42,536 nt of DNA from Nitrospiraceae bacterium (lineage in GTDB: Bacteria > Nitrospirota > Thermodesulfovibrionia > Thermodesulfovibrionales > Dissulfurispiraceae): the NCBI GenBank assembly GCA_021371915.1, contig JAJFVG010000019.1, positions 1 to 42,536 of the forward strand. The letters are read 5' to 3'. Positions within the stretch are counted from its first letter, which is position 1. The number at the start of each line of letters is the position of its first letter. Shown here one piece after another: positions 2,959-24,393 of the stretch. The position numbers and the translations under genes were made by a program. The notes below the pieces were generated by a model. That model was not told the origin of the DNA. It did no database searches and was given only the letters and a program-made list of their open reading frames with translations.

Positions 2959-3306
2959 TTGGGAACCATATCTGACAGCCGCGGAGCAGAACGCAGATCA
3001 CACCAGAGAATCAAGGCAAATGGCCATGTTATTTTCAAGGCCTATTACAGCTTGCACGACAGATCGCCCGAAGACAATCTGCACTCTATTCAGAAATTTT
3101 ATGACAAGCTTTATGGAACCGCCGAGATAGTTGACGAATGCGGCAAGGGCATGAGAATAAAGACAAATATGCCGCTTAATCAGGGGTATCTTCTCGAGAT
3201 AGACAATCAGGATCATCCTCTCGCCATGGTAAGATGGGGATCAAAATCTTCAGATGAAGACAACTATCTGGCCGGCATTATGTATATAGATACAACACTC
3301 GATTAG
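2959..3306 (+). CDS. PilZ-domain protein (c-di-GMP receptor candidate)
   Basis: This 115-residue protein is essentially a single PilZ domain. The N-terminal R-SHQ-R (RxxxR) motif and the DECGKG segment (family consensus D/NxSxxG) are the c-di-GMP contacts. The Ser of the second motif is replaced by Cys, a variation worth noting but not clearly disabling. No start ATG exists; translation likely begins at TTG 2959, preceded by a purine-rich Shine-Dalgarno at 2942-2953. The gene is read from a sigma-54 promoter shared in type with the PEP-CTERM genes, linking it to control of the extracellular matrix, a common PilZ role. It overlaps the convergent HDOD gene by 4 bp. It is cytosolic, with no signal peptide or membrane segment. 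Confidence 0.8.
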   Translation: MGTISDSRGAERRSHQRIKANGHVIFKAYYSLHDRSPEDNLHSIQKFYDKLYGTAEIVDECGKGMRIKTNMPLNQGYLLEIDNQDHPLAMVRWGSKSSDEDNYLAGIMYIDTTLD

Positions 3307-4142
3307 TCAAAAAATCGTTCACGCTGCTGAATAAACTTCTCAGGCAGCTCTTCAATAATCTTTTCACATATTTCATCTGTAAAACCGAGGCGATCCATAG
3401 CCTGTCTCTCCACAGGCACTGCCTTGTAAAATCCGAGTCCTCTATTGAGGCATATGCTGTCAGCTATTCGCACGATGTCGCATAGCACCTTGTCATGAGG
3501 GCTGATACTTTTATCATATGTCTCCTTATGATGGTTTTCCATTACGGTCTGGAGCGACTTGGGGAGATTCCATGCCCTGGCAACCACTCCACCTGCATCA
3601 GTGTGATCGTAACCTATCACTTTTGATTCAACCTCAACATAAGTGCAGCCCGTGCGTTCAGCCATCTCGATGACTTCTGCATAGATCTTTTCAAGATTAT
3701 AGCTAAGCACTGCCTTACCGGTATCATGCATCAGGCCGGCAACAAGAGCTTCATCCGGTTTTGCAGCCCTCGTTCTCTCGCTGACAAGAGAGGCTGCCAG
3801 AGACACTGCCATGCTGTGCTCCCACAACCTGTTCTCAAACTTATTGGTCTTTCTATATATATCCCTTGACGCAGCACCTACAACAAGAGATACCATAGCC
3901 TTAAACCCTATCATATTTATCGCACTTGGGATATCGGCGATCTCATGCCTTCCATAAAACGGAGAATTGGCTATCTTGAGCACACGCGAAGAAAAAGACA
4001 TGTCCCTGGATATTATGTCATTAAGCTCATCCAGGGAAGTTGTCTCCTTTTCAGCAAGATTAAGAACCATGACAGCAACAGGAGGGAGGCTGGGGATATC
4101 TATGTTGTCGAGTGTAAGTTGCTGCATATCTTTTTTCTCCAC
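3303..4142 (-). CDS. HDOD-domain signalling protein
   Basis: About 279 residues form a single HDOD domain, an HD-GYP relative used in bacterial signalling with no demonstrated universal catalytic activity. Visible family hallmarks are the N-terminal DIPSLPPVAV segment, LKIANSPFYG, INMIGFKAM, then HSMAVS, GLMHDTGK and the late ENHH segment. The HD pair (LMHD) is kept. Three in-frame starts compete: TTG 4145, GTG 4142 and ATG 4127. An AGGAGG at 4148-4153 lies 5 nt before the GTG and only 2 nt before the TTG, so GTG is preferred. There is no sensor or output domain, so it may work as a partner of another regulator. Its convergence with the PilZ gene hints at a shared second-messenger theme. Confidence 0.85.
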   Translation of the reverse strand: MEKKDMQQLTLDNIDIPSLPPVAVMVLNLAEKETTSLDELNDIISRDMSFSSRVLKIANSPFYGRHEIADIPSAINMIGFKAMVSLVVGAASRDIYRKTNKFENRLWEHSMAVSLAASLVSERTRAAKPDEALVAGLMHDTGKAVLSYNLEKIYAEVIEMAERTGCTYVEVESKVIGYDHTDAGGVVARAWNLPKSLQTVMENHHKETYDKSISPHDKVLCDIVRIADSICLNRGLGFYKAVPVERQAMDRLGFTDEICEKIIEELPEKFIQQRERFFD

Positions 4143-4243
4143 CAAACCCTCCTGACTGCTCTAATACAAGCTCATAAAATAATTATACCCCATTTATTCA
4201 GGACCATCCCTCAATTCAAATCAACATCAGTCTCTTTTTTGTG

Positions 4244-4252
4244 TGCTATACT
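4244..4252 (+). promoter_or_regulatory. Candidate extended -10 promoter of the nitroreductase-exporter operon
   Basis: TGCTATACT at 4244-4252 fits an extended -10 element (TGnTATAAT, one mismatch). The -35 region is poor. It lies 36 bp upstream of ATG 4289, in the only gap that could hold the operon promoter. Confidence 0.4.
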
Positions 4253-4288: not shown

Positions 4289-5353
4289 ATGCTCCATCCA
4301 AAAATATCAGATATCCTGAGATCAGCAGTCACAGCTCCATCCGGCTGTAACTGCCAACCCTGGCGTTTCGAAGTAAAAGAAAACACTATACGGATATTCA
4401 ACATCCCTGACAGAGACACTTCTCTGTACAACCATCTGCAGAAAGCATCCCTTGCTGCTCACGGTGCGCTTATAGAAAACGCCATGCTCGCTTCCAGGGC
4501 ATCTGGATTTGATCCTGACCTCAGGCTTCTGCCTGAAAAGAAATATCCTGATCTGATAGCAGAGATAGAGCTGCGTGAAGGCAGCCCAAAAGTTGATCCT
4601 CTTTTTGAATTTATTCCGAAAAGAACCTCAAACAGAAAGAAATACAATGCATCAACCCTCTCTACAAAAGAAAAAAACAACCTGCTGAACCAGGCCTTCT
4701 GGTTTCCTCACCTCAGGCTTGAGATTGCCGACACTGATGAGCAGAAAGAGGTCATATCAAAAGCCATTGGCCTTAACGATTGCATAACATTTGAAAATTC
4801 GCATCTGCACAGATTTTTATTCGAACATATAAGATGGACAAAAAAAGATGCTGAACATGCCAGAGACGGCCTGGGCCTTAAAGCCCTGGCGCCCGATCCA
4901 GTGCAGCAGGTGTTATTCCCGGCACTAAAAAATTGGGGAGCAGTAAACTTTATGAACATGTTTGGATTATCCAGGATTATGGCGATTCATGCAGCAAATC
5001 TATGCATGTCCTCCTCAGCAGTCTGCATGATATCAGCTCCGGATGATTCTGCCATAAACCTTATTGAAAGCGGCAGATTGATGCAGCGCCTCGGGCTTGA
5101 GGCATCCAGACTTGGCCTGAGCACACACATCATGACAGGCATAACATTCCTGATTCAGAGAGTTCTTTCAGGAGAATTCGACGGCCTTTCAAAAAATCAT
5201 ATTGACACTCTTCTGGAACACAACGATCTTTTAAAGGCAGCATTCGGGCTTTCTGAAGAGATACTGATGATATGTTTCAGAATCGGAAGGGCGGCACAGC
5301 CGGCCGCTCTATCGCTGCGCATACCTGCGAATGATATAACCACAACATTGTAA
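4289..5353 (+). CDS. Nitroreductase-like FMN oxidoreductase (Acg/Rv1355c-type)
   Basis: This 354-residue protein belongs to the nitroreductase-fold superfamily. The N-terminal segment AVTAPSGCNCQPWRFE corresponds to the FMN-binding 'SxHNxQPWRF' region (Asn-x-Gln-Pro-Trp). The length of about 350 residues and the internally degenerate second half fit the Acg-like/large nitroreductase subfamily rather than the 200-residue NfsB type. It heads an operon with an ABC exporter and, at the far end, a ThiF/E1-like protein (9622). Nitroreductase and ThiF domains are fused in some proteins such as mycobacterial Rv1355c, so the two products may act on the same substrate. The Shine-Dalgarno is weak. The natural substrate cannot be told from sequence; nitro-compound reduction should not be assumed. 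Confidence 0.75.
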   Translation: MLHPKISDILRSAVTAPSGCNCQPWRFEVKENTIRIFNIPDRDTSLYNHLQKASLAAHGALIENAMLASRASGFDPDLRLLPEKKYPDLIAEIELREGSPKVDPLFEFIPKRTSNRKKYNASTLSTKEKNNLLNQAFWFPHLRLEIADTDEQKEVISKAIGLNDCITFENSHLHRFLFEHIRWTKKDAEHARDGLGLKALAPDPVQQVLFPALKNWGAVNFMNMFGLSRIMAIHAANLCMSSSAVCMISAPDDSAINLIESGRLMQRLGLEASRLGLSTHIMTGITFLIQRVLSGEFDGLSKNHIDTLLEHNDLLKAAFGLSEEILMICFRIGRAAQPAALSLRIPANDITTTL

Positions 5354-5381
5354 CCCACCCTGTTTTCTGATATTATTGGAC

Positions 5382-6509
5382 ATGTTCCTGGTAGCATTAA
5401 AGATACTGTTATACGACAAGGTGCGTTCTTTAATCACGCTTCTGGGCGTGATTTTTGCTGTCTGCCTCATATTCGCGCAAGTGGGCATATACATGGGGCT
5501 GATGGAAGCCTCTTCAATACTCATAGACAACACCGAGGGTGACATATGGGTCATCTCAAAAAACTCGCGTAATTTTGATTTTGCGCAGCCCTTTCCTGAA
5601 TATTTCTATGAGCAGGCACTGTCTGTTGAAGGAGTCAAGAGCGCTGAAAAACTTATAGTTGCCTGGCATCTTATAAAGAACAAAGAGGGCGGCACAGAAC
5701 AAATAGAGATAGTCGGATTCAATCCTGACACAGGCATCGGCGGCCCGTGGAAGATGGTAACAGGCATGCCCTATGACGTTAAAAACGGCAACTTCTTTAT
5801 TGTCGATGAATCATCCATGAAGAGGCTCGGAAATATCAAGGTCGGCGATTATCGCGAAGTAGGAAGAAAGAGGCTTAAGCTTGTGGGCATCTCGGAAGGA
5901 GTAAGATCTTTTACAACCGCGCCCATGGTTTTCATGTCGTATAATCTTGCGCAGCGGCTTGTTGAATACGTCGGACCTGACTGCACGGTCTTCATTGTTA
6001 TTAAAACTGAGAAGGGCTACAACCCTTCCACGGTTGTGGAGAAGCTAAAGTCAAAGCTCAAGGCTGTCGACATATATACCAAAGATGCTTTCAGCATGAA
6101 AACAAGGCTCTACTGGTCCATTGAAACAGGGATCGGATTCTCTTTTTTGTTAACCATACTGATAAGTTTTCTCATAGGAATTTTAATTGTGGGGCAGACA
6201 ATATACAACTCAACAGTAGAACACATCAAAGAGTTCGGCACGCTCAAGGCCCTTGGCGCCTACAATCTTGACATATATAAAATTATTTTCTCGCAGGCTG
6301 TTTTAAATGCGCTCATAGGATACACAATCAGTCTTGCGATATCTCTCATCTCGGTAAAAATCTACAAGGCAAGCGGCATGGTTATGATCATGACAGCTCC
6401 TGTGAATATTGCGGTTCTTGTCATGACTCTATTGATGTGCCTGGCCGCAGCCTTTGTCTCAATCCGAAAGATACGCAAAATAGACCCTGCCATACTCTTC
6501 AGGGGATAA
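5382..6509 (+). CDS. ABC exporter permease, DevC-like (FtsX/MacB fold)
   Basis: About 375 residues have the topology of the FtsX/MacB superfamily: one N-terminal membrane helix (residues about 15-38), a periplasmic domain of around 200 residues, then three C-terminal helices starting with GIGFSFLL, FSQAVLNAL and NIAVLVMTLL. The N-terminal pattern, with DKVRS before the helix and IDNTEGDIWV after it, resembles DevC, the permease of the DevBCA glycolipid exporter of heterocyst-forming cyanobacteria. TTG 5376 is an alternative start; ATG 5382 is preferred although neither has a good Shine-Dalgarno. The ATPase, membrane-fusion protein and TolC genes follow immediately, making a complete four-part exporter. 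Substrate class (glycolipid, lipid or small molecule) is inferred from family only. Confidence 0.85.
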   Translation: MFLVALKILLYDKVRSLITLLGVIFAVCLIFAQVGIYMGLMEASSILIDNTEGDIWVISKNSRNFDFAQPFPEYFYEQALSVEGVKSAEKLIVAWHLIKNKEGGTEQIEIVGFNPDTGIGGPWKMVTGMPYDVKNGNFFIVDESSMKRLGNIKVGDYREVGRKRLKLVGISEGVRSFTTAPMVFMSYNLAQRLVEYVGPDCTVFIVIKTEKGYNPSTVVEKLKSKLKAVDIYTKDAFSMKTRLYWSIETGIGFSFLLTILISFLIGILIVGQTIYNSTVEHIKEFGTLKALGAYNLDIYKIIFSQAVLNALIGYTISLAISLISVKIYKASGMVMIMTAPVNIAVLVMTLLMCLAAAFVSIRKIRKIDPAILFRG

Positions 6510-6515
6510 CCAGCA

Positions 6516-7208
6516 ATGAAAACCGCAATAGCTACGAACAATCTAACGAAAATTTACACTGAAGGGAAAAACGAGGTTACAGCCGTATCGGGTGTCTCCC
6601 TTGCTCTTAAGGAAGGCGAGGTCGTGGGTCTGCTCGGCCCATCAGGAAGCGGCAAGACAACGCTTCTTTCAATGCTAGGATGCATACTCAGACCGACCAG
6701 CGGCACACTGAGCGTTTACGACAACCGTGTGGAACACCTTGATGAACAGGATCTGCCTGTGATAAGAAAAAAATATCTGTCATTTATATTTCAGGGATTC
6801 AACCTCTTCCCTGCGCTCACTGCTTATGAAAATGTGATGCTTGCTCTCAGCCTCAAGGGTTTTTCAGAAAATGACGCATCCGTGCGCGCAACCAACCTGC
6901 TCACAGAGGTGGGGCTATCAGAGAGGATGCACTTTCTACCCAGGGACTTGAGCGGCGGTCAGAAGCAGCGCGTTGCTGTTGCCAGGGCTCTGGCATCAGG
7001 CTCGCAAGTGATCCTTGCTGATGAGCCAACAGGCAATCTTGACCACATTAACGGCAGAAAGGTTATGGAGCTGCTCAAAAAGCTCTCTGTTGAACAGAGC
7101 AAATGTGTTATAGTTGCAACGCATGACAACAGGATAAACGATCTGTTTGACCGTATACTTTATATGCAGGATGGTACGATAATCAAAGAAGACAGGAGAC
7201 AAGAATAA
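6516..7208 (+). CDS. ABC exporter ATPase, DevA/MacB-like
   Basis: This 230-residue nucleotide-binding domain has every expected motif: Walker A GPSGSGKTT (residues 41-49), a Q-loop in FQGFNLFP, the signature LSGGQKQR, Walker B VILADEPTGNLD and a switch His in ATHD. The DEPTGNLD sequence is typical of the MacB/LolD/DevA group that drives FtsX-fold permeases by mechanotransmission rather than substrate passage. It starts 6 bp after the permease and its stop overlaps the start of the next gene (TAATG). It therefore energises the permease at 5382. Confidence 0.93.
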   Translation: MKTAIATNNLTKIYTEGKNEVTAVSGVSLALKEGEVVGLLGPSGSGKTTLLSMLGCILRPTSGTLSVYDNRVEHLDEQDLPVIRKKYLSFIFQGFNLFPALTAYENVMLALSLKGFSENDASVRATNLLTEVGLSERMHFLPRDLSGGQKQRVAVARALASGSQVILADEPTGNLDHINGRKVMELLKKLSVEQSKCVIVATHDNRINDLFDRILYMQDGTIIKEDRRQE

Positions 7209-8230
7209 TGAAAACCAAACGCGCGAGCTTTGTCATAATAGTCATACTTGTTTTAGTGGCAGCAGGGCTTGCCCTGCTAGGGCCGTCTCTTGTGCAGAAA
7301 GAGACAGGCAATCTTGTCAACAAACAGCTAAAGCCGCCACATATAACTGCCAGAGGAATTGTTGAGACAGAAAATGATGTAGAGATAAGCAGCAGGGTAA
7401 GCGGATTGATCACCAAAGTAAAACCAAAAAAAGGCGATGTGGTTGCCAAAGGCGACACACTTGTTGAGTTCGATAAATCCAAGATACTGTCAAGGCTCTC
7501 TATGGCAAAGGCCTCGCTCGCCGAAGCACAGGCGCAACTAAAAGAACTTGAGGCAGGCTCAAGAAGCGAAGACATACAGATAGCCAAAAACAAAATGGAC
7601 AGGGCTCAGTCTATCCTTGACAGGGCAAAGACCGATTATGAACGGCAAAAGAGACTTTTCGACAGCAAGGCCACCACATTTGTCGATCTTGAAAGAGCTG
7701 AAGAAAAGCTGAGGGTTGCATCAGAAGAACACAATGAAAGCAAGGCAGCGTATGAAAAATCAAAGAAGGGGCCGCGCCCTGAAGAGATAGAGCGCGCACG
7801 AGCTGTCGTGCATAGGGCATCTGCTGAAATCGCCAACAACGAAGCACAACTCAGGGACTATACAATTAAATCTCCGATAGATGGGTTTATTGTCGAAAAA
7901 TTTAAGGATAGCAATGAAAGCGTTGAAGCAGGGACTCCGATAATGATACTGATCGATACCGCTCATCTCAGGGTAACAGCAGAGCTTGAAGAGACAAATG
8001 TCGGCAGCTCGTTTGTGGGGCAGCCAGTTGAAGTGACAACAGATACATACAAGGGTAAAATTTATAGAGGAAAGGTCACCAAGGTTTTCGCTGCTGTAAA
8101 GAGGAAATCCCAGAGATTGTTTGATCCAGCCTCAACATTCGATATAAATACTCAGGAGATACACATAAGCCTCGACGATTACTCAGGACTCAAAAGAGGC
8201 ATGACTGTTACAGTAAAGTTTTTAAAATGA
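7208..8230 (+). CDS. Periplasmic adaptor (membrane-fusion protein), DevB/HlyD-like
   Basis: This 340-residue protein has an N-terminal membrane anchor (residues about 8-28). A split biotinyl-lipoyl domain follows: a first half around GLITKVKPKKGDVVAKGD and a second half around YTIKSPIDGFIVE. Between them is a long alpha-helical hairpin rich in Ala, Glu, Lys and Arg (about residues 95-215) with two 'GSRSEDI/GPRPEEI' turns, as in YbhG/DevB-like adaptors. A beta-barrel domain ends the protein. It joins the inner-membrane ABC transporter to the TolC-type channel. The start shares the stop of the ATPase gene and its own stop overlaps the TolC gene (ATGA), so the four exporter genes are translationally coupled. 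Confidence 0.9.
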   Translation: MKTKRASFVIIVILVLVAAGLALLGPSLVQKETGNLVNKQLKPPHITARGIVETENDVEISSRVSGLITKVKPKKGDVVAKGDTLVEFDKSKILSRLSMAKASLAEAQAQLKELEAGSRSEDIQIAKNKMDRAQSILDRAKTDYERQKRLFDSKATTFVDLERAEEKLRVASEEHNESKAAYEKSKKGPRPEEIERARAVVHRASAEIANNEAQLRDYTIKSPIDGFIVEKFKDSNESVEAGTPIMILIDTAHLRVTAELEETNVGSSFVGQPVEVTTDTYKGKIYRGKVTKVFAAVKRKSQRLFDPASTFDINTQEIHISLDDYSGLKRGMTVTVKFLK

Positions 8231-9621
8231 GAATAACCGCACTTGCAATATGCGCTGCGCTTTTTGCAGCATCTACAGTCTTCGGAGCTGATCTTTCGCT
8301 CGAAGACTGCGTTGCCATGGCACTCAAAAACAACAGCGGACTCAAAGCAACCGGCACAGGCATAACAGTGGCTGAGGCTGATAAGGACATAGCCAGGGCA
8401 AAGATGCTGCCGTCACTCAGGATATCCGGCGCGTATTCAGCCCTCGACAAGTCTGACAGGACAATAATAATGAAAGATGCCTTTGCGCCAGGAGTGCCGG
8501 TAATCAGCGGCCCGCTCTCAATGGACAACAAGGAGACCTACGGTGCAAGCCTCATACTGGAACAGCAGGTATTCAGGGGCGGAGAACTGCTGCACAATGT
8601 TTATAAACACGACATATTCGCTGATATCAGCAGAAAGAATACAGAGCGCCATAAAACCCTGCTGATATCCGAGGTCAAAAGGGCCTACCATGAATCCGTG
8701 CGTGAGCAGCGCATCAGGAAAAGCCTTCAAAAGATAATCGAATCAAAGAAAGAAAGATTGAGGGTAATATCCCTGCTGCTGAAGGAGGGTTACACTAAAG
8801 TAGAGGACTTTCTTACAGCAGAGACGGACCTTTCGTCATCAGAGCTCGAACTCGGCAGGGCGATAAACAGGGAGGAACTGGCGCTCAGCAGGTTGAGCAG
8901 ACTTATATATCTGGAAGGCGAGGCACGGCCTGTTTTATCTGACAAACCTGTATACAATACCCTTGCAGTAACCCTTGAGCAGGCAAAGACAACAGCCCTT
9001 GTCAACCGTCAGGATATAAAAATATCAGAGGCAAGAATAAAGGCAGCTGACGAGGAAATATCAATCGCACAGAGCGACTTTTACCCAAAGGCTTCTATTG
9101 ACGGCAGATATACAAGACAGAAAGAGACTGATTCCATCAGACCTGAGGTCTGGTCCTTCAATGCAAGGCTCGACTGGTATCTTTTTGAGTGGGGCAGGAC
9201 AAAGAGTGAAGTTGCAAAAGCAAAGGCACTTAAACAACGGGCTCAGTATGATCTTGATGAAACAAAACAGGCTGCAGCGCTCGAAGCTGAGACAGCATGG
9301 AGATTGATAAAAGACAGGGAACATGAGGTTGAACATGCGGCAAGGAGGCTCGCTGCATCAGAGTTCTCTCTCAAGCGCAGTCTCGACAGATATGCCGAAC
9401 GCGTGATAATGCTTGCTGATCTGATAGAAATGGAAAGCGATATGTTGAAGGAGTATCAGGATTACCTGGCTGCAATAGACAATCTTTTGATAGCGCATGC
9501 CCAGCTCGAAGCAGCATTGTCATACACTGACAGCGGATGGTTCATACAAAAAGAAATATATAATCCTGATTTTGAAGCTATCACAAAATCAATGGCTGAT
9601 CTCACATCAGAAAGGAAGTAG
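8227..9621 (+). CDS. TolC-family outer-membrane efflux protein
   Basis: This 464-residue protein has a cleavable signal peptide (MRITALAICAALFAASTVFG, cleavage likely before ADLS) and the two-fold repeat of the outer-membrane efflux protein family. The repeat halves begin at LSLEDCVAMALKNN and at VTLEQAKTTALVNR and are mostly long amphipathic helices. The insertion RQKETDSIRPEVWSFN leading to LDWYLFEWG is the usual second strand pair region. It forms the outer-membrane duct of the DevC/A/B-like exporter encoded just upstream. The next gene begins directly after its stop codon. Confidence 0.9.
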   Translation: MRITALAICAALFAASTVFGADLSLEDCVAMALKNNSGLKATGTGITVAEADKDIARAKMLPSLRISGAYSALDKSDRTIIMKDAFAPGVPVISGPLSMDNKETYGASLILEQQVFRGGELLHNVYKHDIFADISRKNTERHKTLLISEVKRAYHESVREQRIRKSLQKIIESKKERLRVISLLLKEGYTKVEDFLTAETDLSSSELELGRAINREELALSRLSRLIYLEGEARPVLSDKPVYNTLAVTLEQAKTTALVNRQDIKISEARIKAADEEISIAQSDFYPKASIDGRYTRQKETDSIRPEVWSFNARLDWYLFEWGRTKSEVAKAKALKQRAQYDLDETKQAAALEAETAWRLIKDREHEVEHAARRLAASEFSLKRSLDRYAERVIMLADLIEMESDMLKEYQDYLAAIDNLLIAHAQLEAALSYTDSGWFIQKEIYNPDFEAITKSMADLTSERK

Positions 9622-10494
9622 ATGGTGGATATAAACAGTCTGCTTACGCATGAATTCAAGCGCAACATAGGCCTGCTCAACGAAGAAGAACAGAAACAGC
9701 TTCTGCGTTCAAGGGCAGCAGTTGCCGGCGCAGGCGGGGTAGGCGGTCTGCACCTGCTGACGCTTGCAAGATTGGGGATAGGCAATTTTACAATTGCTGA
9801 TCCTGATGTATTTGAGGATGTAAACATCAACAGGCAATACGGCGCATTCCGCAGCACATTCGGCAGAAACAAGGCAGAGGCGCTTGCTAATATGGTGAAG
9901 GACATAAACCCATCGGCTGACATAAAATTATTTACAGAAGGAATAAGCAGTGCAAACATAGATGCATTTTTGCAGGATGCTGACATTTTTATTGACGGCA
10001 TAGATTTTTTTGAGATAGAAGCAAGAAGACTTCTTTTCAGAAAAGCGAGAGAAAAAAACATATACGCAATAACAGCAGCTCCACTCGGTTTTGGTGCAAC
10101 GCTCCAGACATTTGCTCCTGACGGCATGACATTTGACGACTATTTCGGCATTAACGACAACATGCCACAGGTTGAAAAACTGGCTGCATTTGCAGCAGGC
10201 CTCGCGCCGCACCCGTATCACATTAAATACATGGATCTCTCCAAGGTGAGCCTTACTGCAAAAACAGGACCCGCGCTTGCCTTGTCATGCACGCTCTGTG
10301 CGTCCCTTGCTGCAACAGAAGCAATAAGAGTGCTCACAGGTAAAGACAAGGTAAAACCAGTGCCGCATTACACACAGATTGATCTACTGCGCAACAAGTA
10401 CAAGCATGGCTACATTTGGGGTGGGGGAAAAAATCCGGCACAAAAACTAAAGAAGTGGATAATACTTAAAAAGGCAGGCTCATCTGCTGCTTGA
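9622..10494 (+). CDS. E1/ThiF-like adenylyltransferase
   Basis: This 290-residue Rossmann-fold protein of the ThiF/MoeB/E1 family activates carboxyl groups by adenylation in known members. Visible are the nucleotide loop GAGGVGG (36-42), the acidic residue ending strand 2 (IAD60), the ATP-contacting NINRQ (68-72), Lys84 and the DGIDFF segment (125-130). A single CxxC (CTLC, about 226-229) is present, not the two CxxC pairs of zinc-binding ThiF/MoeB, and no canonical catalytic Cys loop is obvious. It is therefore closer to E1-like proteins of specialised metabolism or the ThiF half of Rv1355c. It is the last gene of the nitroreductase-exporter operon, with zero spacing after TolC, and overlaps the convergent acyltransferase gene by 15 bp. 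No ThiS-like carrier protein gene is seen nearby. Confidence 0.82.
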   Translation: MVDINSLLTHEFKRNIGLLNEEEQKQLLRSRAAVAGAGGVGGLHLLTLARLGIGNFTIADPDVFEDVNINRQYGAFRSTFGRNKAEALANMVKDINPSADIKLFTEGISSANIDAFLQDADIFIDGIDFFEIEARRLLFRKAREKNIYAITAAPLGFGATLQTFAPDGMTFDDYFGINDNMPQVEKLAAFAAGLAPHPYHIKYMDLSKVSLTAKTGPALALSCTLCASLAATEAIRVLTGKDKVKPVPHYTQIDLLRNKYKHGYIWGGGKNPAQKLKKWIILKKAGSSAA

Positions 10495-11196
10495 TATCTG
10501 CTCCTCTCTTGCTGCCTCGACAAATTCCCTGTAAAGCATAGGATTGATACGCTCCATTATCCTTTCAGCTTCTTCAATGCACAGAAGATAAGGAGTCCTG
10601 CGACCGTGATAGTCAACCTCCGGCCCGATAGGTTTAAAGATGATGCCCATCCTTGTAAGCAGTATATGAAGCGCCTTTGCCATAACAGCGCACCAGTGGG
10701 TAAGCCCTATAAGTTTGCTCTCAGCATACATGGCCTTAAAGAGACCTATAACTATCTCCTGCCTGCGCCTCTTTGAGCTGTGCTCATCAATAACAGGAAA
10801 AGGCAATTCAACCTGCGCGTTTGAGTTATACATAAGCTGGTCTTCATGTCTTCTCCTGTAGTCTTTACTGACAGCCAGCCTGGATATCTCAGCGATTTTG
10901 CCGTGATCAATATAGTTTAGGTCATGGTCAAGAGTGCAATGTTTCTGGATGGGAAGGCCTTTTTGAGAACTGAGTATCATCCTTATAGTGCCTATCAACT
11001 GGCCATGCCTGAGTGCCATAAAATGCAGAGCGCTGTCATCATAGTCATCCACTTCAACGCCTTTTATATGCTCTTCAGCCTTTTCAAATCCCCACTCTTC
11101 AACATATACCTTGTACCTAAGCTTGAATATCTCATTAAGCTCAGCGCTGGTATGCACCCTCTTGAACTCAAAACCCGAAACTGTCTGGATAGTCAT
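10480..11196 (-). CDS. PEP-CTERM/exosortase-associated N-acyltransferase (autoinducer-synthase-like)
   Basis: These 238 residues have the acyl-CoA/ACP N-acyltransferase fold shared by LuxI-type synthases and FeeM-like N-acyl amino acid synthases. The N-terminal segment FKLRYKVYVEEWGFE matches the conserved 'R-x-VY-x-E-GW' substrate region. ALHFMALRHGQLIGTIRMI and the central EISRLAVSK are the acyl-donor binding core (E-x-SRLAV). This subfamily is recurrent in genomes with exosortase systems, which agrees with the PEP-CTERM genes next door. It probably acylates an amino acid or amine with a fatty acyl group; the product is unknown. It is convergent with the ThiF-like gene. The Shine-Dalgarno is weak (GGGG region); a TATAAT lies at 11234-11239. 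Confidence 0.82.
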   Translation of the reverse strand: MTIQTVSGFEFKRVHTSAELNEIFKLRYKVYVEEWGFEKAEEHIKGVEVDDYDDSALHFMALRHGQLIGTIRMILSSQKGLPIQKHCTLDHDLNYIDHGKIAEISRLAVSKDYRRRHEDQLMYNSNAQVELPFPVIDEHSSKRRRQEIVIGLFKAMYAESKLIGLTHWCAVMAKALHILLTRMGIIFKPIGPEVDYHGRRTPYLLCIEEAERIMERINPMLYREFVEAAREEQISSSR

Positions 11197-11233
11197 AATC
11201 GCCCCGGCATGTTTATTTCACGATTGTGATTAC

Positions 11234-11239
11234 ATTATA
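11234..11239 (-). promoter_or_regulatory. Candidate -10 element for the acyltransferase gene
   Basis: A perfect TATAAT reads on the minus strand at 11239-11234, 38 bp upstream of the ATG. The -35 is unconvincing because it falls in the T-run of the preceding terminator. A TCAC-N4-GTGA palindrome at 11218-11229 lies just downstream of the -10, near the expected start point, and could be an operator. Confidence 0.4.
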
Positions 11240-11255
11240 CAACCAATCAGGACAA

Positions 11256-11282
11256 AGAAAAAGGCGGAGATTACTCTCCGCC
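11256..11282 (-). terminator. Rho-independent terminator of the first PEP-CTERM gene
   Basis: GGCGGAGA (11263-11270) pairs perfectly with TCTCCGCC (11275-11282) around a 4-nt loop. On the minus strand the hairpin is followed by TTTTTCTTT. It lies 23 bp beyond the stop of the 11306 gene and insulates the acyltransferase gene. Confidence 0.85.
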
Positions 11283-11305
11283 TCTGAAATTAGAAACTTT
11301 AATTT

Positions 11306-12157
11306 TTAGCTCATTCTCTTGCGAGCATAAAGCCCGAGGCCAAAGAGGCCAGCGCCAAGAAGGAGTATTGTTGATGGTTCTGGAACACCGTAATTAGCAT
11401 CGCCTGTATTACGGGTCAAAATCTGGGAACCATTTGGTCCTGTTATAATGGTAACGTTTGCAGCGATTATGGTGTTGACATCAACGTAACCGTACGCTTC
11501 AAGCAGCGCTTCCATGTCGTTGCCAAGAGCGTCAAACCATACGCCAGTCGGCACGTCAACTATTCTCCAAGTGGTAAATGTTGAACCAGTATCCCTTATT
11601 GCAGGATTTGCAAAGTTCACAAGTGAGCCATTACCTGAAAACAACTTTATATCGGCAAGCTTAATGCCGTCTGTGAAGGTTGATGCTACGTCATCACCAG
11701 CGCCTATTCCAAGACCGAAATTGGCATTCTTCGTGCCATTTGAAGCCAGACCTGCATACAGACTTGCTGTACCGCTGGTGTACTTTATTGTCAAGGCATT
11801 AAAAGCATTGCCATTGACATCAATACCAGCAGATGCACCTGAGATATAACCCTTCAGGTTGTCCCAACGACCAGTCATTTCCCATGCAGTGTTCAGCCCT
11901 GCTGTGCTGCCAATAGTTGTACCATGAAGCGTGAACGCACCGATCTGTAGATCTCCCACATCGTTAAAAGTGGAAAGAGGAACAATACCGTTTGCATAGG
12001 TGGATGTTGCGTCAACTGTTGACAATACCTGCCTGTCAAATATGCCTGTAGTGCCGGTTGGCAGTGTGTAATACATTTGTATGCCATCAGCAAATGCTAC
12101 TGAACTTGCTGCCAGCATAACCATGCCCATCACAACTGCTACTAAAATCTTCTTCAT
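11306..12157 (-). CDS. PEP-CTERM surface/extracellular protein 1
   Basis: This 283-residue exported protein has a signal peptide (MKKILVAVVMGMVMLAASS, cleavage near AFA-DG) and a C-terminal PEP-CTERM sorting signal. That signal is VPEPSTILLLGAGLFGLGL followed by the basic tail YARKRMS. Exosortase is expected to cleave at this signal, releasing or anchoring the mature protein in the envelope or matrix. The body is Gly, Ala, Thr, Asn rich with no recognised enzymatic domain. GTG 12166 is in frame but falls inside the Shine-Dalgarno AAGGAGGTG; the ATG at 12157, 7 nt after it, is the start. The gene has a textbook sigma-54 promoter and an upstream composite operator. The exosortase gene itself is not in this window. 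Confidence 0.9.
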   Translation of the reverse strand: MKKILVAVVMGMVMLAASSVAFADGIQMYYTLPTGTTGIFDRQVLSTVDATSTYANGIVPLSTFNDVGDLQIGAFTLHGTTIGSTAGLNTAWEMTGRWDNLKGYISGASAGIDVNGNAFNALTIKYTSGTASLYAGLASNGTKNANFGLGIGAGDDVASTFTDGIKLADIKLFSGNGSLVNFANPAIRDTGSTFTTWRIVDVPTGVWFDALGNDMEALLEAYGYVDVNTIIAANVTIITGPNGSQILTRNTGDANYGVPEPSTILLLGAGLFGLGLYARKRMS

Positions 12158-12250
12158 ACTTTTCACCTCCTTATTATTGGGGTTTGAACAAAGTCCAAAC
12201 TTGTTTCCTAAGAAATACGCAGTAGATAAGTTCCCTGCCCCTTTTAAGTT

Positions 12251-12266
12251 AGCAATCCCTGTGCCA
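12251..12266 (-). promoter_or_regulatory. Sigma-54 promoter of PEP-CTERM gene 1
   Basis: On the minus strand the sequence reads TGGCACAGGGATTGCT, a full match to the RpoN consensus TGGCAC-N5-TTGCW, with GG and GC exactly 10 bp apart (12265-12264 and 12253-12252). Predicted transcription starts about 12 bp further on, giving a leader of roughly 80 nt. Confidence 0.88.
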
Positions 12267-12320
12267 AACAGACAACTCCTTGTTTTTATTGCAAGGTAGT
12301 TTTTTAAAAGACCCTAAAAT

Positions 12321-12357
12321 TGTAAGGTTTCTCGACAAAACGTCGAGTTGCTTTACA
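12321..12357. promoter_or_regulatory. Composite palindromic operator (site 2), putative UAS of PEP-CTERM gene 1
   Basis: TGTAA (12321-12325), CGACA (12333-12337), CGTCG (12341-12345) and TTACA (12353-12357) are symmetric about 12339, with spacers of 7, 3 and 7 bp. The inner part with its flanks forms the inverted repeat CTCGAC-AAAAC-GTCGAG. Its centre lies about 74 bp upstream of the sigma-54 -24 element. The arrangement matches site 3 almost exactly, including TGTAAG and CTTTACA flanks. Confidence 0.72.
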
Positions 12358-12444
12358 AAACACCCTGGCTGACTATATAGCAATATATTGAGCAGGCAAT
12401 TTGTTAAAAATCTGCTTATTTATCGCATGATATAAAAACCAGCT

Positions 12445-12484
12445 ATTAAAAGGAGCGGAAGGTTGTACAACCCTCCGCTCCTTT
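12445..12484 (-). terminator. Hairpin terminator of PEP-CTERM gene 2
   Basis: AAAGGAGCGGA (12449-12459) pairs with TCCGCTCCTTT (12474-12484). The intervening bases can extend the stem through the GGTTGTACAACC palindrome. On the minus strand it is followed by a short TTTTAAT tract, so it is a moderate terminator. It lies 19 bp past the stop codon. Confidence 0.7.
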
Positions 12485-12503
12485 GTTTAAAAACTCTATT
12501 TTA

Positions 12504-13283
12504 TTAACCGTTAAATCTTCTTCTTGCACAGAAACCCAGGCCGACAAGTCCAGCGCCAAAAAGAATAATTGTCGAAGGCTCTGGAGTGAGTATGCCCCTT
12601 CCCATCATCATATCATTGCCGCACTCAATCGTAGTGTGAACAAGAAACTGCTGATCATGAGGAAGAAACCCGAGATCAACCTCAAACCCATAATGGCTGC
12701 CTTCACCATCATTAGCTAAAATAAGTTTAACCAGCGGCATGTCATCCTTTATCAGTTGTGTGCTGCCGCTAGCATATCTCCATGGGCTGGATTTCAAATT
12801 CTCATTGTAATACGGAATGCTAAGTATGGAATTCGAATTGATTCCATAGACATCATACGTCATGGTCCTGAAATTAGGAACAATAACATAATCCCAGCCA
12901 AAGGTATTTCTTATTGTGGAACTGCTAACATATGAAAGAGCGCCTATATTGCTTCCATATTTGGCATTATTATGGATATCAATAAAAATATCTCCGGCCT
13001 TTATAATGCGTCCATTATTCGGATCTGTTACCCCAGTAAAAAAATTGAAGCCGCCAATAACCTGGAGCTTTGTGTTGTTCTGAACAAACCTTTCCAGATC
13101 CCACTTCTGTCCTGTTGCATCAGGGGGCTCGACCTCATTATTTTCATTTTTGGTGTTATACCATGAGTTTGATGAGCCTGAATTGTACCAGCCATCAAAA
13201 ATGGTGATATCTTTAGCGAACACCGGCGATGCTATCAGCATAACCAGCACTATCCCCAGAAATAAATTAATTTTGCTTTTCAA
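12504..13283 (-). CDS. PEP-CTERM surface/extracellular protein 2
   Basis: This 259-residue exported protein has a signal peptide (MKSKINLFLGIVLVMLIASP, cleavage near VFA-KD) and a C-terminal sorting signal TPEPSTIILFGAGLVGLGF followed by CARRRFNG. The mature part is rich in Asn, Tyr, Trp and Gly with no domain I recognise. Exosortase processing at the PEP motif is the expected fate. Translation seems to start at TTG 13283, 6 nt after AAGGAG; no in-frame ATG is suitably placed. A sigma-54 promoter lies about 50 bp upstream and a composite operator lies beyond it. It is not similar enough to PEP-CTERM protein 1 to be an evident duplicate, outside the sorting signal. Confidence 0.88.
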   Translation of the reverse strand: MKSKINLFLGIVLVMLIASPVFAKDITIFDGWYNSGSSNSWYNTKNENNEVEPPDATGQKWDLERFVQNNTKLQVIGGFNFFTGVTDPNNGRIIKAGDIFIDIHNNAKYGSNIGALSYVSSSTIRNTFGWDYVIVPNFRTMTYDVYGINSNSILSIPYYNENLKSSPWRYASGSTQLIKDDMPLVKLILANDGEGSHYGFEVDLGFLPHDQQFLVHTTIECGNDMMMGRGILTPEPSTIILFGAGLVGLGFCARRRFNG

Positions 13284-13331
13284 TGTTTTCTCCTTTTTGC
13301 ATATTCCTGCTTAATTATTCCGATAGATTAT

Positions 13332-13347
13332 AGCAAATTAAATGCCA
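13332..13347 (-). promoter_or_regulatory. Sigma-54 promoter of PEP-CTERM gene 2
   Basis: The minus strand reads TGGCATTTAATTTGCT, matching TGGCAC-N5-TTGCW with one mismatch. GG (13346-13345) and GC (13334-13333) are separated by 10 bp. The predicted leader is about 38 nt. Confidence 0.85.
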
Positions 13348-13400
13348 TTATTTTACTTATTGATGTTTAAGCATTTTATTTATGCAAAGCTTGCCTTGTT

Positions 13401-13437
13401 TGTAAGAATAATCGACATTTTGTCGGATTACTTTACA
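13401..13437. promoter_or_regulatory. Composite palindromic operator (site 3), putative UAS of PEP-CTERM gene 2
   Basis: TGTAA (13401-13405), CGACA (13413-13417), TGTCG (13421-13425) and TTACA (13433-13437) are symmetric about 13419 with spacers of 7, 3 and 7 bp. The centre is about 74 bp upstream of the -24 element, the same as at site 2. The site also lies upstream of the divergent acyl-CoA ligase gene (start 13504) and could affect it. Confidence 0.72.
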
Positions 13438-13503
13438 CTAAATTGCTATACTAACCGTCTATGATTAGGTCATAAACCAGCTATAATTATCTTGAGGAGA
13501 CGA

Positions 13504-15009
13504 ATGGAAAAAGAAATTCAGACACTTAATGAACTTTTAAAGAAACGGGCAGAAAAAAATCCGAAAAAGGACTTCATTCGCTTCGAAGGCAAAAAATATA
13601 CTTTAAGCATAATGGACAGTTGGGCTGATGCTTTCGCAGAAATGCTATTGTCTAGCGGATTCGAGCCAGGCAGCAAAGCCGCGATACTTGCCCGCAACTG
13701 CCCAGCCTATATTGCAGCCTATTTCGGAATTCTCAGGGCCGCAGGTACAGTTGTACCTCTTAATATAATGCTCGTGCCTGATGAGATACGATATATCCTT
13801 AAAGACTCTGACTCTACTGTCTGCTTTTATGGAGAAGAGTCATCTGATACAGCAAAAAAACTGGGTGATATGGGCGGGATTGAATTCATCGATATTAACA
13901 GCATATCCCATGAAAACAAACAAAACACTGTTTCATCTATTGAAAGCAGCGCCAAACCTGAAGACATCTCAACCATACTCTACACGTCAGGCACTACAGG
14001 CTATCCGAAAGGAGCAATGCTCACGCACAGCAATCTTCTTTCAAATGCAGTAGCAGCAACAAAAGCGCTCGATGTATTTGAGAAGGACAGATTTGTGGTC
14101 TTCCTGCCACTTTCACACGCATTCACATTCACTGTCTGCGTGCTGCTTCCTCTTTATGTAGGCTCATCTATAACGCTTATAGCTTCCGTCAGCCCGTTTA
14201 CGAAAGTCATTAAGCGCATGATACTTGACAGAGTGAACATCTTTATTGCTGTGCCTGCCGTATATGACATACTCGCCAGAAAAAAACTGCCGTTTTATAT
14301 AAAACTGCTGTTGCGATTCAGGCTCTGCATCTCCGGCGCCTCTGCGCTCTCTACGGAAACCCTTGCGCTTTTTGAAAAAAGGTTCAGGGCTCCACTGCTG
14401 CAGGGCTACGGACTCACAGAAGCATCGCCGATTGTCTGCGTAAATACTTTTGCTAAAAATGGCAACAAGCCAGGCACAGTAGGAAGACCGCTTTTTGGAA
14501 TAGAAGCAAAGGTTGTTGACGACAATGACAATGATCTGCCCCCAAATACACCTGGAGAGCTTGTTGTCAAAGGCCCGAGTGTCATGAAGGGCTACTATAA
14601 AAGAGAGGCTGATACAGCACAAACAATAAAAAATGGGTGGCTATACACAGGCGATATTGCTGTTATTGACAGCGAAGGTTTCATTAAAATTGTGGACAGA
14701 AAAAAAGATTTAATCATTGTTGACGGACTGAACATATATCCAAGTGAGGTTGAAAACGCTGCGCACCGGCATCCGGCAGTAGCTTCATGCGCGATGATCG
14801 GGATCGAAACTGAAGGCCGGGAACTGCCGGTCATGTTCGTTGTCTCTGGAAAGGAGCACGGCCTGAGCGAGCTGGAACTAAAAAAATTCCTGCGCGGCAA
14901 AATAGCTTCATTCAAGATGCCGAAGAAATTTGTGTTTGTTGATGAGCTGCCAAAAACATCCACAGGCAAGGTACTAAAGCGTGAGCTGAAAAAATGGAAG
15001 GTGCTGTAA
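13504..15009 (+). CDS. AMP-dependent acyl-CoA synthetase/ligase
   Basis: This 501-residue ANL-superfamily enzyme activates a carboxylic acid, probably a fatty acid, via an acyl-adenylate. Motifs in order are the P-loop-like TILYTSGTTGYPKGA (about residue 158), QGYGLTEASP (A5), YTGDIA (A7), the hinge DRKKDLIIVDGLNIYPSEVE (A8) and the C-terminal PKTSTGKVLKRE (A10) with the catalytic Lys. ATG 13504 follows GAGGAG at 13494-13499; an upstream in-frame TTG at 13492 is less likely because it abuts that Shine-Dalgarno. The gene is divergent from PEP-CTERM gene 2 and overlaps the patatin gene (TAATG), so acyl activation and lipid hydrolysis or transfer are coupled. Together with the acyltransferase at 10480 it suggests lipid metabolism linked to the surface system. 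The exact substrate is unknown. Confidence 0.88.
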   Translation: MEKEIQTLNELLKKRAEKNPKKDFIRFEGKKYTLSIMDSWADAFAEMLLSSGFEPGSKAAILARNCPAYIAAYFGILRAAGTVVPLNIMLVPDEIRYILKDSDSTVCFYGEESSDTAKKLGDMGGIEFIDINSISHENKQNTVSSIESSAKPEDISTILYTSGTTGYPKGAMLTHSNLLSNAVAATKALDVFEKDRFVVFLPLSHAFTFTVCVLLPLYVGSSITLIASVSPFTKVIKRMILDRVNIFIAVPAVYDILARKKLPFYIKLLLRFRLCISGASALSTETLALFEKRFRAPLLQGYGLTEASPIVCVNTFAKNGNKPGTVGRPLFGIEAKVVDDNDNDLPPNTPGELVVKGPSVMKGYYKREADTAQTIKNGWLYTGDIAVIDSEGFIKIVDRKKDLIIVDGLNIYPSEVENAAHRHPAVASCAMIGIETEGRELPVMFVVSGKEHGLSELELKKFLRGKIASFKMPKKFVFVDELPKTSTGKVLKRELKKWKVL

Positions 15010-15845
15010 TGAACAGACCGGATGAAAACAAACCGGTAACACTCATGCTGCTCGGCAGCGGGGTGCGATTCACAGCCTATATTGGCGGCCTCCTTGCAAT
15101 AGAGGAAAAAGGCCTTAAAATCGGCAAGATCATCGGCGCATCAGCAGGCAGCATAGTAGGCTCCTTATACGCATCCGGCCGGTCTCCGCTCGAGATGAAA
15201 AAAATCGCCATGGATGTTGACCTGTCTCTTTTCCGGGACAGAAGCATATTCAGCCTGATAAGGGGCAAAGGCATTTACAAGGGCGAATATGTGAGAAGGT
15301 GGATGGATAAGATGCTGGAGGGCAGGACTTTCGGAGACAACTTCAGACTTCCTCTTTTTGTTGTGGCAACAGACATACAGAATAACACTCCTTTCATCTT
15401 CTCAAGGCATGTTACTCCTGATGTCAAGGTTGCCGAAGCTGTAAGATACTCGATCGGCATACCATGGGTTTTTGAATACAAGCACTTCAACTACAACAAC
15501 CAGCGCCATATATTCGTTGACGGCAACATGCTCGTAAAGCGCGTTGAAGACATGTTCGCAAAGGACGGCAGACCCCTGATACTCAGATCATTCTCAAAGG
15601 AAAATCCGGCTGAAAAGGAAAAGACCCTGACCTTCAGACGCTACTTCTGGAAGACATTCAGAATGATGATGAGCGCATTTGACAACGAGAGGGTGAGCGC
15701 TGAAAAGTGGACCAACACAATTTTGATATCCTGCGGGAACATACACATGACAAACTTCAATCTGTCAGCCTACGAAAAACAGTTTTTATTCGAACAGGGC
15801 TATGAGCAGGTGAGAAAATATCTTGAATACAAATGGAAGGTGTGA
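15009..15845 (+). CDS. Patatin-like phospholipase/acyl hydrolase
   Basis: This 278-residue protein carries the patatin Ser-Asp dyad: the nucleophile elbow GASAGS (about residue 43) and the Asp motif VDGNM (about residue 172, DGN in place of the common DGG/DGA). The oxyanion segment is LGSGVRF rather than the usual GGGxRG. ATG 15009 overlaps the ligase stop and follows GGAAGGTG; an ATG at 14994 inside the ligase gene is less likely. There is no signal peptide, so it probably acts on inner-leaflet phospholipids or acyl-thioesters in the cytosol. Coupling to an acyl-CoA ligase points to fatty-acid release and re-activation. Only 8 bp separate it from the convergent NusG-like gene, with no terminator between them. 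Confidence 0.85.
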   Translation: MNRPDENKPVTLMLLGSGVRFTAYIGGLLAIEEKGLKIGKIIGASAGSIVGSLYASGRSPLEMKKIAMDVDLSLFRDRSIFSLIRGKGIYKGEYVRRWMDKMLEGRTFGDNFRLPLFVVATDIQNNTPFIFSRHVTPDVKVAEAVRYSIGIPWVFEYKHFNYNNQRHIFVDGNMLVKRVEDMFAKDGRPLILRSFSKENPAEKEKTLTFRRYFWKTFRMMMSAFDNERVSAEKWTNTILISCGNIHMTNFNLSAYEKQFLFEQGYEQVRKYLEYKWKV

Positions 15846-15853
15846 GTTGAGGC

Positions 15854-16387
15854 TCAGACCTTCTCTATCTCATCAGCCAGTATCTTGACCCCGACACTTC
15901 TGCTGAGTATCTCGACATTAACCACAAAAATATGATTTGATTCCTTGCTCAGGAGCACGCCCTCTGCTCCCTTGAGTACGCCTTTTGATACCCTTATGCG
16001 GTCGCCTTCGTGCAGGTGCGGATATATGTCGAGCTGTTGTCCGCTCTCTATAACCAGCTTCAAAGCGGATATCTCGTCATCTGAAACAACCGCTGGTTCG
16101 CCTCCTGCGGCTGATATCAGATTGACTGCTCCCCTTGTTTTCAGCACTCTTACACGGGATTCCGGATCAGAAGGCGCGTGCACAAAAACGTACCCTGTAA
16201 AGAGCGGGAACTCGACCAGCTTTTTCCTGTCCTTCCATTGCCTCAGCTTTGTTACTGTCGGCAGAAAGGTCGAGATTCCTTTTTTCTGAAGTTCGGCATT
16301 TGTTATGAACTCATGCCTCGATTTTACGCGCAGGGCAAGCCAGACAGCCTGCCCATGCCAGTGGGATGAATCATGTCTTTGCTGCAT
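15854..16387 (-). CDS. NusG-like (UpxY/RfaH-type) transcription antiterminator
   Basis: This 177-residue specialised NusG paralogue has an N-terminal NGN domain (WLALRVKSRHEFITNAEL through FPLFTGYVFVHA) and a C-terminal KOW domain starting at LHEGDRIRVSKGVLKGAEGV. Such paralogues (RfaH, UpxY, LoaP) suppress polarity in long polysaccharide or surface operons. An extra basic stretch, KLRQWKDRKK, is typical of the UpxY-like group. Its ATG directly follows the TAA of the beta-barrel gene (TAAATG), with no Shine-Dalgarno, so it depends on translational coupling. It is unusual that it lies at the 3' end of its transcription unit rather than at the head of a polysaccharide operon, so its target operon must be elsewhere. 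Confidence 0.85.
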   Translation of the reverse strand: MQQRHDSSHWHGQAVWLALRVKSRHEFITNAELQKKGISTFLPTVTKLRQWKDRKKLVEFPLFTGYVFVHAPSDPESRVRVLKTRGAVNLISAAGGEPAVVSDDEISALKLVIESGQQLDIYPHLHEGDRIRVSKGVLKGAEGVLLSKESNHIFVVNVEILSRSVGVKILADEIEKV

Positions 16388-22082: not shown

Positions 22083-22095
22083 CTTCTTTATGGAA

Positions 22096-23970: not shown

Positions 23971-23983
23971 CTTCGGTCTCCGG

Positions 23984-24367
23984 TTAGTATGATGATTCGC
24001 ATCCGGCAGCCAATGCATACTCCTGCACAGGCGAACCATTCAGAACATGTTCTTTGAATATTTTTTTGATCTTTTCTGCATCCAGCTGCCCGTATTTTAC
24101 GGGCGCTTCTCCCACGATCTCGACTGTTGCCATCGGCTCTTTGCTGCACAGGCCTGCGCAGCCTGAAGCGGATGCTATAACATCGCTGGCACCCTGCTTG
24201 TGAATCTCGTCAATCAGGGCCTCCATAACTGTTCTGGCTCCGGCAGCGATGCCGCATGTGCCCATGTGCACAGTTATTTTTGCCCTATAGCCGCCTTCTC
24301 TTAATGTAAACACAGCCTTGTATGACTCTTTTATCTTTATTAAATCCTCAACATTAAGTTTCGGCAT
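23984..24367 (-). CDS. HndB-like thioredoxin-fold 2Fe-2S protein
   Basis: This 127-residue protein has a single thioredoxin-like 2Fe-2S domain with four Cys ligands in the patterns GTCGIAAGA (one Cys) and SGCAGLCSKEP. A further Cys lies near the C-terminus. It corresponds to HndB of Hnd-type NADP-reducing hydrogenases, which sits between the NuoE-like and NuoF-like genes exactly as here. It likely relays electrons inside the complex. It starts 26 bp after the NuoE fusion and ends 13 bp before the NuoF-like gene. Confidence 0.85.
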   Translation of the reverse strand: MPKLNVEDLIKIKESYKAVFTLREGGYRAKITVHMGTCGIAAGARTVMEALIDEIHKQGASDVIASASGCAGLCSKEPMATVEIVGEAPVKYGQLDAEKIKKIFKEHVLNGSPVQEYALAAGCESSY

Positions 24368-24393
24368 CCTTACCCTCCTTGCAGCTCTGTACG

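Follow-up and report, generated by a model that had tools for sequence, protein, structure and literature searches.

A conserved Nitrospirota gene cluster joining enzymes of the acyl-oxazolone type to a DevBCA-like exporter, with a probable role in making and secreting an N-acyl amino acid derivative

Introduction

In Mycobacterium tuberculosis, the enzymes TyzA, TyzB and TyzC acylate tyrosine on its nitrogen, cyclise the product with ATP and desaturate it with O2, giving acyl-oxazolones (PMC10404671), and TrzA and TrzS perform an analogous pathway on tryptophan, in which cyclisation precedes desaturation (PMC12856293); the latter paper also relates an earlier reported pathway of this kind, that of OxzAB in Pseudoalteromonas rubra. 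Here we describe a comparable set of genes in a 42,536-nucleotide stretch of DNA from a Nitrospiraceae bacterium, the whole of which we call the window (JAJFVG010000019.1 of GCA_021371915.1; contig C105 of a 1.8-Mb assembly that is 96% complete). A six-gene operon and a convergent gene encode an N-acyltransferase, a ThiF/E1-like enzyme, a nitroreductase-superfamily flavoenzyme and an ABC exporter with its outer-membrane channel, and together these are likely to produce an N-acyl amino acid derivative, of the acyl-oxazolone / N-acyl-dehydroamino acid class, and to secrete it. The original prediction, made from this DNA alone, had presented the locus as an undescribed system, which cannot be upheld for its enzymes, as the trio has been published as TyzABC, OxzAB and TrzAS (PMC10404671, PMC12856293) and as NasY-ThiF-nitroreductase (PMC12479983).

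Clusters of the latter type in Stieleria, Thalassotalea and Massilia have been assigned to N-acyl dehydrotyrosines, and NasY-ThiF-nitroreductase clusters track 2,3-dehydrotyrosine products; Massilia umbonata, from which ThiF and nitroreductase are absent, makes saturated N-acyl amino acids only (PMC12479983). The cluster of Stieleria maiorica contains a PEP-CTERM gene (PMC7293339). In their available portions, the published accounts of the Tyz, Trz and Nas systems assign no dedicated exporter, with MmpL9, a neighbour in M. tuberculosis, no more than suggested. What acyl-oxazolones and N-acyl dehydrotyrosines do physiologically, and what becomes of them, are named as open questions (PMC12856293, PMC10404671).

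Results

The six plus-strand genes span positions 4289-10494 of the window, and the acyltransferase gene converges on their end from the minus strand (Table 1), such that all three enzyme genes lie within 7 kb. Gene labels come from Pfam and NCBIfam profile searches with family cut-offs; these back every label of the original prediction, whose coordinates and gene order were exact. Between the flavoenzyme and DevC genes there are 22 nt and between DevC and DevA 6 nt, DevA overlaps DevB by 1 nt and DevB overlaps TolC by 4 nt, TolC and ThiF are joined without a gap, and the 3' ends of ThiF (+) and the acyltransferase (-) share a 15-bp convergent overlap.

This seven-gene order is kept in two further Nitrospirota genomes. 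In G001, of the same genus (locus L036, JAFGXL010000016.1, a Nitrospirae metagenome assembly), the arrangement is identical, and PilZ, HDOD, PEP-CTERM, acyl-CoA ligase and patatin genes surround the cluster. In G007 (L037), of another genus, all seven genes recur with their order and their orientations to one another unchanged, though elsewhere on the chromosome and among other neighbours, and their products are 34% (TolC), 42% (flavoenzyme), 44% (DevB), 50% (acyltransferase), 62% (DevA), 67% (ThiF) and 68% (DevC) identical to those of the window. That the order has survived both divergence to 34-68% identity and a change of site speaks for selection acting on the seven genes as a unit. Furthermore, the PRK14851 fusion profile matches two separate places, the ThiF and the flavoenzyme, in G000, G001 and G007 alone among 31 family genomes. 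The original prediction was to be given up if the neighbourhood proved not to be conserved, or if the nitroreductase and ThiF families were distributed independently of the exporter and acyltransferase; it withstands both, with the neighbourhood kept, the two enzymes occurring in exactly the same three genomes and a FeeM-ThiF-nitroreductase triple fusion in existence (see below).

Neither the acyltransferase nor DevC is exclusive to the pathway. In G002 (L114, G002:C1:440000-459000), positions 8043-13488 carry PrsT, PilZ, HDOD and acyltransferase genes, with HDOD directly adjoining the acyltransferase, and all six operon genes are missing from the locus. The six genes are therefore a cassette that has entered or left the interval between HDOD and the acyltransferase, an enzyme that has a function in the cassette's absence too; M. 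umbonata without ThiF and nitroreductase offers a parallel (PMC12479983). One might then suppose that ThiF, flavoenzyme and exporter make up a pathway of their own that acts on something else, for example on a small peptide adenylated in the manner of MccB or PaaA, both structurally characterised ThiF-fold relatives, and that the acyltransferase is an exosortase gene that lies beside them by chance, on the opposite strand as it is and occupying the same PrsT-PilZ-HDOD locus in G002 with no operon. We regard this as unlikely: the acyltransferase accompanies the operon at the different site in G007, a FeeM-type acyltransferase is fused to ThiF and flavoenzyme in Nitratidesulfovibrio vulgaris and overlaps ThiF in a further Nitrospirota class (see below), no precursor peptide gene was seen, and the published trio uses N-acyl amino acids. 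The participation of the acyltransferase, which the original prediction had put forward, is supported by the kept gene order and the triple fusion, with the proviso that the enzyme also occurs without the operon.

As to the enzymes themselves, the acyltransferase scores 190.9 bits against TIGR03694 exosort_acyl (cut-off 111.95) and is also above cut-off for PF21926 FeeM (E 3.4e-15) and PF00765 Autoind_synth (E 4e-9). Second TIGR03694 acyltransferases, about 30-33% identical to that of the window, lie at G000:C48:4988-5560, G001:C15:66380-66919 and G002:C5:10428-11015, and neither ThiF nor flavoenzyme was found near them. The ThiF protein carries the motifs GAGGVGG (residues 36-42) and NINRQ (68-72) and the adenylation aspartate D128, which the alignment has kept in all cluster ThiF homologues. 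In the ThiF tree, the cluster proteins form one clade (100/100), and the remaining ThiF-fold proteins in the relatives examined fall outside it; the window ThiF does not group with the housekeeping ThiF/MoeB/TcdA-type proteins of these genomes. Two close ThiF-fold paralogues at L039 (G014:C33:53670-56866) stand beside but outside this clade and possibly belong to another ThiF-dependent pathway. The E1-like fold, along with a weak match to a cap2/3-type defence protein, might place ThiF in a ubiquitin-like conjugation or anti-phage system; the match to PRK08223/PRK14851 is much stronger, and with no E2, JAB peptidase or ubiquitin-like gene found in the cluster or the related loci examined, we rejected this reading, whose probability we take to be close to negligible.

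The flavoenzyme matches, over its whole length, the nitroreductase half of the ThiF-nitroreductase fusions PRK14851 and Rv1355c (Rv1355c family, E 8.4e-47, residues 6-351; Acg family, E 3.3e-42). With regard to FDO-A, the nitroreductase subgroup of the oxidases in known clusters of this kind, its bit scores are 188 for PRK14851, 160 for Rv1355c and 145 for Acg/FDO-B, an ordering by profile score only. The FMN-site motif APSGCNCQPW (pattern APSxxNxQPW) occupies residues 16-25, and R182 aligns with an arginine of an Rv1355c-family plasmid protein. Of the positions tested by mutation in TrzS (D217, R540 and Q651), as transferred through the Rv1355c-family protein and not TrzS itself, the aspartate and arginine are kept and the glutamine is His280. 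AlphaFold models from two-row alignments had mean pLDDT values of 36.7 (flavoenzyme) and 33.5 (acyltransferase) and were not used for fold searches.

The enzyme trio also occurs in other lineages, where relatives outside Nitrospirota were sampled through plasmid records only and the spread across phyla is accordingly under-sampled. On a plasmid of N. vulgaris, which is an anaerobe of another phylum, DVUL_RS15680 (L075) is one 989-residue protein with FeeM (E 5e-44), ThiF (E 3e-49) and nitroreductase domains. It sits in an annotated XrtA/PEP-CTERM locus ahead of THxN PEP-CTERM proteins, and a DevC-DevA-DevB set lies about 8 kb away, a distance that makes this the weakest case of exporter linkage. 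The triple fusion and the co-occurrence in 3/31 genomes support the proposal, made in the original prediction, that the enzymes constitute one pathway to an acylated small molecule. In L072 (G141, of another Nitrospirota class), the genes for a FeeM-type synthase, ThiF and flavoenzyme share 4-bp overlaps; a PEP-CTERM gene comes next and DevC-DevA-DevB after it, and a PrsT-like TPR protein is encoded alongside. On a Bdellovibrio plasmid, ThiF and a FeeM-type synthase are encoded along with an ABC transporter and a flavoenzyme whose match is weak. In L073 (G076:C1:2320500-2340400, positions 8964-10620), a FeeM-type synthase gene adjoins ThiF and then a PEP-CTERM gene; could this be a cyclising, non-desaturating variant?

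DevBCA-TolC is the glycolipid exporter of cyanobacteria, and all three window subunits fall below the strict family cut-offs: 227.8 against 295.8 bits for DevA (TIGR02982), 79.9 against 129 for DevB (TIGR02971) and 163.9 against 290.35 for DevC (TIGR01185). The exporter is Dev-like, and not DevBCA in the strict sense. In the DevC tree, the cluster-linked proteins are not one clade; we rejected a single inherited DevC lineage, and exporters of DevBCA type have therefore joined the enzymes more than once. On the Methylosinus plasmid pMSC49a (L125, positions 5995-10316), related DevC-DevA-DevB-TolC genes lie inside a type I polyketide synthase cluster, a further example of such an exporter accompanying a secondary metabolite. 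The TolC-like open reading frame of G007 (L037:9816-11765; a mechanical call) is 649 residues long, about 190 more than that of the window, and overlaps the ThiF frame by 50 nt. It could be argued that the operon serves stress resistance, with a general efflux pump and a nitroreductase that detoxifies, given that DevC/MacB-type pumps also export drugs and lipoproteins, that the MacB and LolD families also give the window ATPase good scores and that DevBCA relatives are found alone. We think this quite improbable: no detoxification role is known for ThiF, the strict co-occurrence of ThiF and flavoenzyme and the FeeM triple fusion point to biosynthesis, and the Methylosinus relatives sit with polyketide genes. 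That the exporter belongs with the enzymes, another element of the original prediction, is supported by the conserved neighbourhood, with the proviso that DevC relatives also occur without them.

The surroundings of the cluster are those of exosortase A. PEP-CTERM genes adjoin the clusters in G001, G007, L071-L073 and L075. The G001 cluster contig encodes PrsT, an EpsB-type glycosyltransferase, export and chain-length proteins, a tyrosine kinase, an ATPase, exosortase A and PrsK, and so carries an XrtA/PEP-CTERM locus beside the cluster; the window itself ends in PrsT, and the exosortase of its genome is on another contig. An exosortase is present in each of the three cluster genomes and, overall, in 22 of 60 relatives, a comparison that ignores kinship and is weak evidence for a link. 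A common PEP-CTERM partner was considered and rejected, the mature parts being unrelated between lineages save that those of G007 and N. vulgaris are weakly linked through THxN.

Table 1. Genes of the cluster and of its flanks, with window positions and profile matches.
Feature	Position	Strand	Profile match
Flavin-dependent oxidase/desaturase, nitroreductase superfamily (TyzC / TrzS C-half type)	4289-5353	+	PRK14851 E 1.9e-55
DevC-like ABC exporter permease	5376-6509	+	MacB_PCD + FtsX (Pfam); TIGR01185 163.9 bits
DevA-like ABC ATPase	6516-7208	+	best match TIGR02982, 227.8 bits
DevB/HlyD-type periplasmic adaptor	7208-8230	+	HlyD families; TIGR02971 79.9 bits
TolC-family outer-membrane channel	8227-9621	+	Pfam OEP 164 bits, above cut-off; TIGR01844 101.8 bits
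ThiF/E1-like adenylating cyclase, PRK08223 family	9622-10494	+	388 bits, cut-off 266
Exosortase-associated N-acyl amino acid synthase (GNAT/FeeM/autoinducer-synthase type)	10480-11196	-	TIGR03694
PEP-CTERM protein, exosortase substrate, adjoining cluster	11306-12166	-	TIGR02595/PF07589, above cut-off
XrtA/PEP-CTERM TPR lipoprotein PrsT, truncated by contig end	3-2432	-	TIGR02917 542 bits, cut-off 312
HDIG/HDOD-type protein flanking operon	3303-4145	-	TIGR00277

Several further features of the window were noted. Acyl-CoA ligase and patatin-like hydrolase genes (13492-15845, 16-bp overlap, kept in G001) might supply acyl groups or serve lipid turnover. At 15854-17545, a gene for an RfaH/UpxY-type antiterminator adjoins that for a TIGR03016-like PEP-CTERM-associated outer-membrane protein (88.2 bits, just below the cut-off of 90.85). 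Upstream of the operon, TGCTATACT at 4244-4252 is an extended -10-like sequence 37 bp before the first gene, seen by eye and missing from the computed scan list, and an Rfam search of the window gave no match.

Discussion

From the gene content, the conserved order, the co-distribution, the enzyme fusion in another phylum and the adenylation motif, and by analogy with characterised relatives as regards the individual reactions, the amino acid, export and function, we propose the following pathway. The acyltransferase would couple a fatty acyl chain to what is probably an aromatic amino acid; the ThiF-like enzyme would adenylate its free carboxylate, upon which the amide oxygen would close a five-membered oxazolone (azlactone) ring; and the nitroreductase-fold flavoenzyme would take two hydrogens off the alpha-beta bond, whether ahead of cyclisation or once the ring has closed. 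If the ring were hydrolysed, an N-acyl-dehydroamino acid would remain. Last, the DevC/A/B exporter, coupled to its TolC, would move the product out across the envelope. Because the cluster lies in or beside an exosortase A / exopolysaccharide locus, the product most likely serves as a surfactant, signal or antimicrobial on the cell surface or within the biofilm matrix. In Methylomonas, disruption of an exosortase-linked N-acyl amino acid synthase abolished a polysaccharide band (PMC11072679), which supports a matrix role.

It is possible that the product is the N-acyl-dehydroamino acid from the outset, with the oxazolone never released and ThiF activating the substrate solely for desaturation. 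This is a variant within the proposed pathway, and its probability overlaps with that of the whole. The producers of stieleriacine, thalassotalic acid and kyonggic acid share these genes, with the oxazolone unseen there (PMC12479983), and acid and alcohol hydrolyse oxazolones (PMC12856293), though in TrzS the ring has to form before desaturation; TyzABC and TrzAS, on the other side, release oxazolones (PMC10404671, PMC12856293).

A number of observations weigh against the proposed pathway. No product is known from any genome of the lineage. TyzC and TrzS need O2, while the window genome is without a detected haem-copper or bd oxidase. TrzS is a long branch in the ThiF tree that could not be placed reliably; the window residue at the position like Gln651 of TrzS is histidine, and that like Arg540 is glutamate in homologues from the other Nitrospirota class. 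The window acyltransferase, of TIGR03694, branches separately from the FeeM-type domains found in L072 and L075, to which it has no full-length pairwise match. DevC relatives at 43-45% identity are present without the enzymes in four relatives, the acyltransferase is present without the operon in G002, and no flavoenzyme was detected in G076, a single-contig genome with FeeM and ThiF.

The matter of oxygen merits separate comment. Searches of the window genome for haem-copper oxidase (COX1) and cytochrome bd subunits found neither, while control searches were positive, and on this account O2 is a doubtful electron acceptor for the flavoenzyme in this host. Elsewhere in the window, NuoE/F/G-like and molybdopterin oxidoreductase subunits with FdhD (19581-25248) have the look of an NAD-linked formate dehydrogenase, which would fit an anaerobic host. 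Either an acceptor other than O2 is used, or the product is made only upon exposure to oxygen. We also entertained, at long odds, that the flavin step runs without O2 in these anaerobes and that the exported oxazolone is an activated, electrophilic acyl donor; its own exporter would bring it to where exosortase A works, and there it would become covalently attached to PEP-CTERM proteins or matrix polysaccharide, acylating or anchoring them.

If the proposed pathway is correct, its own trans-envelope exporter and the repeated recruitment of exporters of DevBCA type predict that acyl-oxazolone and N-acyl dehydrotyrosine lipids are secreted, and the exosortase A setting ties lipids of the acyl-oxazolone type to exopolysaccharide and PEP-CTERM biology. 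The triple fusion on the N. vulgaris plasmid furthermore offers a cultivable anaerobe in which to study how a step known only in O2-dependent form proceeds without O2.

With respect to known systems, TyzABC resembles the window in having three separate proteins, an AHL-synthase/FeeM-like N-acyltransferase, a ThiF-like cyclase and a nitroreductase-superfamily flavin oxidase, and in the placement of the acyltransferase gene on the strand opposite the other two; it differs in its O2 dependence, aerobic host and diverged order and sequences, and in having neither a trans-envelope ABC exporter nor a reported exosortase locus. TrzAS and OxzAB likewise have ThiF and a flavin oxidase in one pathway with an N-acyltransferase, and the adenylation aspartate motif is common to them and the window, but their ThiF is fused to the oxidase, the TrzS ThiF domain is too diverged for tree placement with that of the window, and no exporter is reported. 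The stieleriacine, thalassotalic acid and kyonggic acid clusters, which we compared by description only, share the N-acyl amino acid synthase, ThiF and nitroreductase (PMC12479983, PMC7293339), and differ in their methyltransferase tailoring genes, none of which was seen in the window cluster, and in that no exporter is assigned to them. Cyanobacterial DevBCA-TolC has the DevC-DevA-DevB-TolC architecture of the window exporter, whose ATPase best matches the DevA family, whereas the DevC tree sets the Gloeothece protein apart, and the subunit scores, as given above, fall short. With the N-acyl amino acid synthases linked to exosortases (Craig et al. 2011, cited in PMC7293339), the window acyltransferase has in common its score above the TIGR03694 cut-off and its place in an XrtA locus; this synthase family is also found without ThiF and flavin oxidase, as in G002. 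The enzyme trio of acyl-oxazolone / N-acyl-dehydroamino acid biosynthesis is, then, already known; what is new here is a dedicated exporter, acquired on more than one occasion, a place in exosortase A loci, and hosts of anaerobic appearance although the characterised enzymes require O2.

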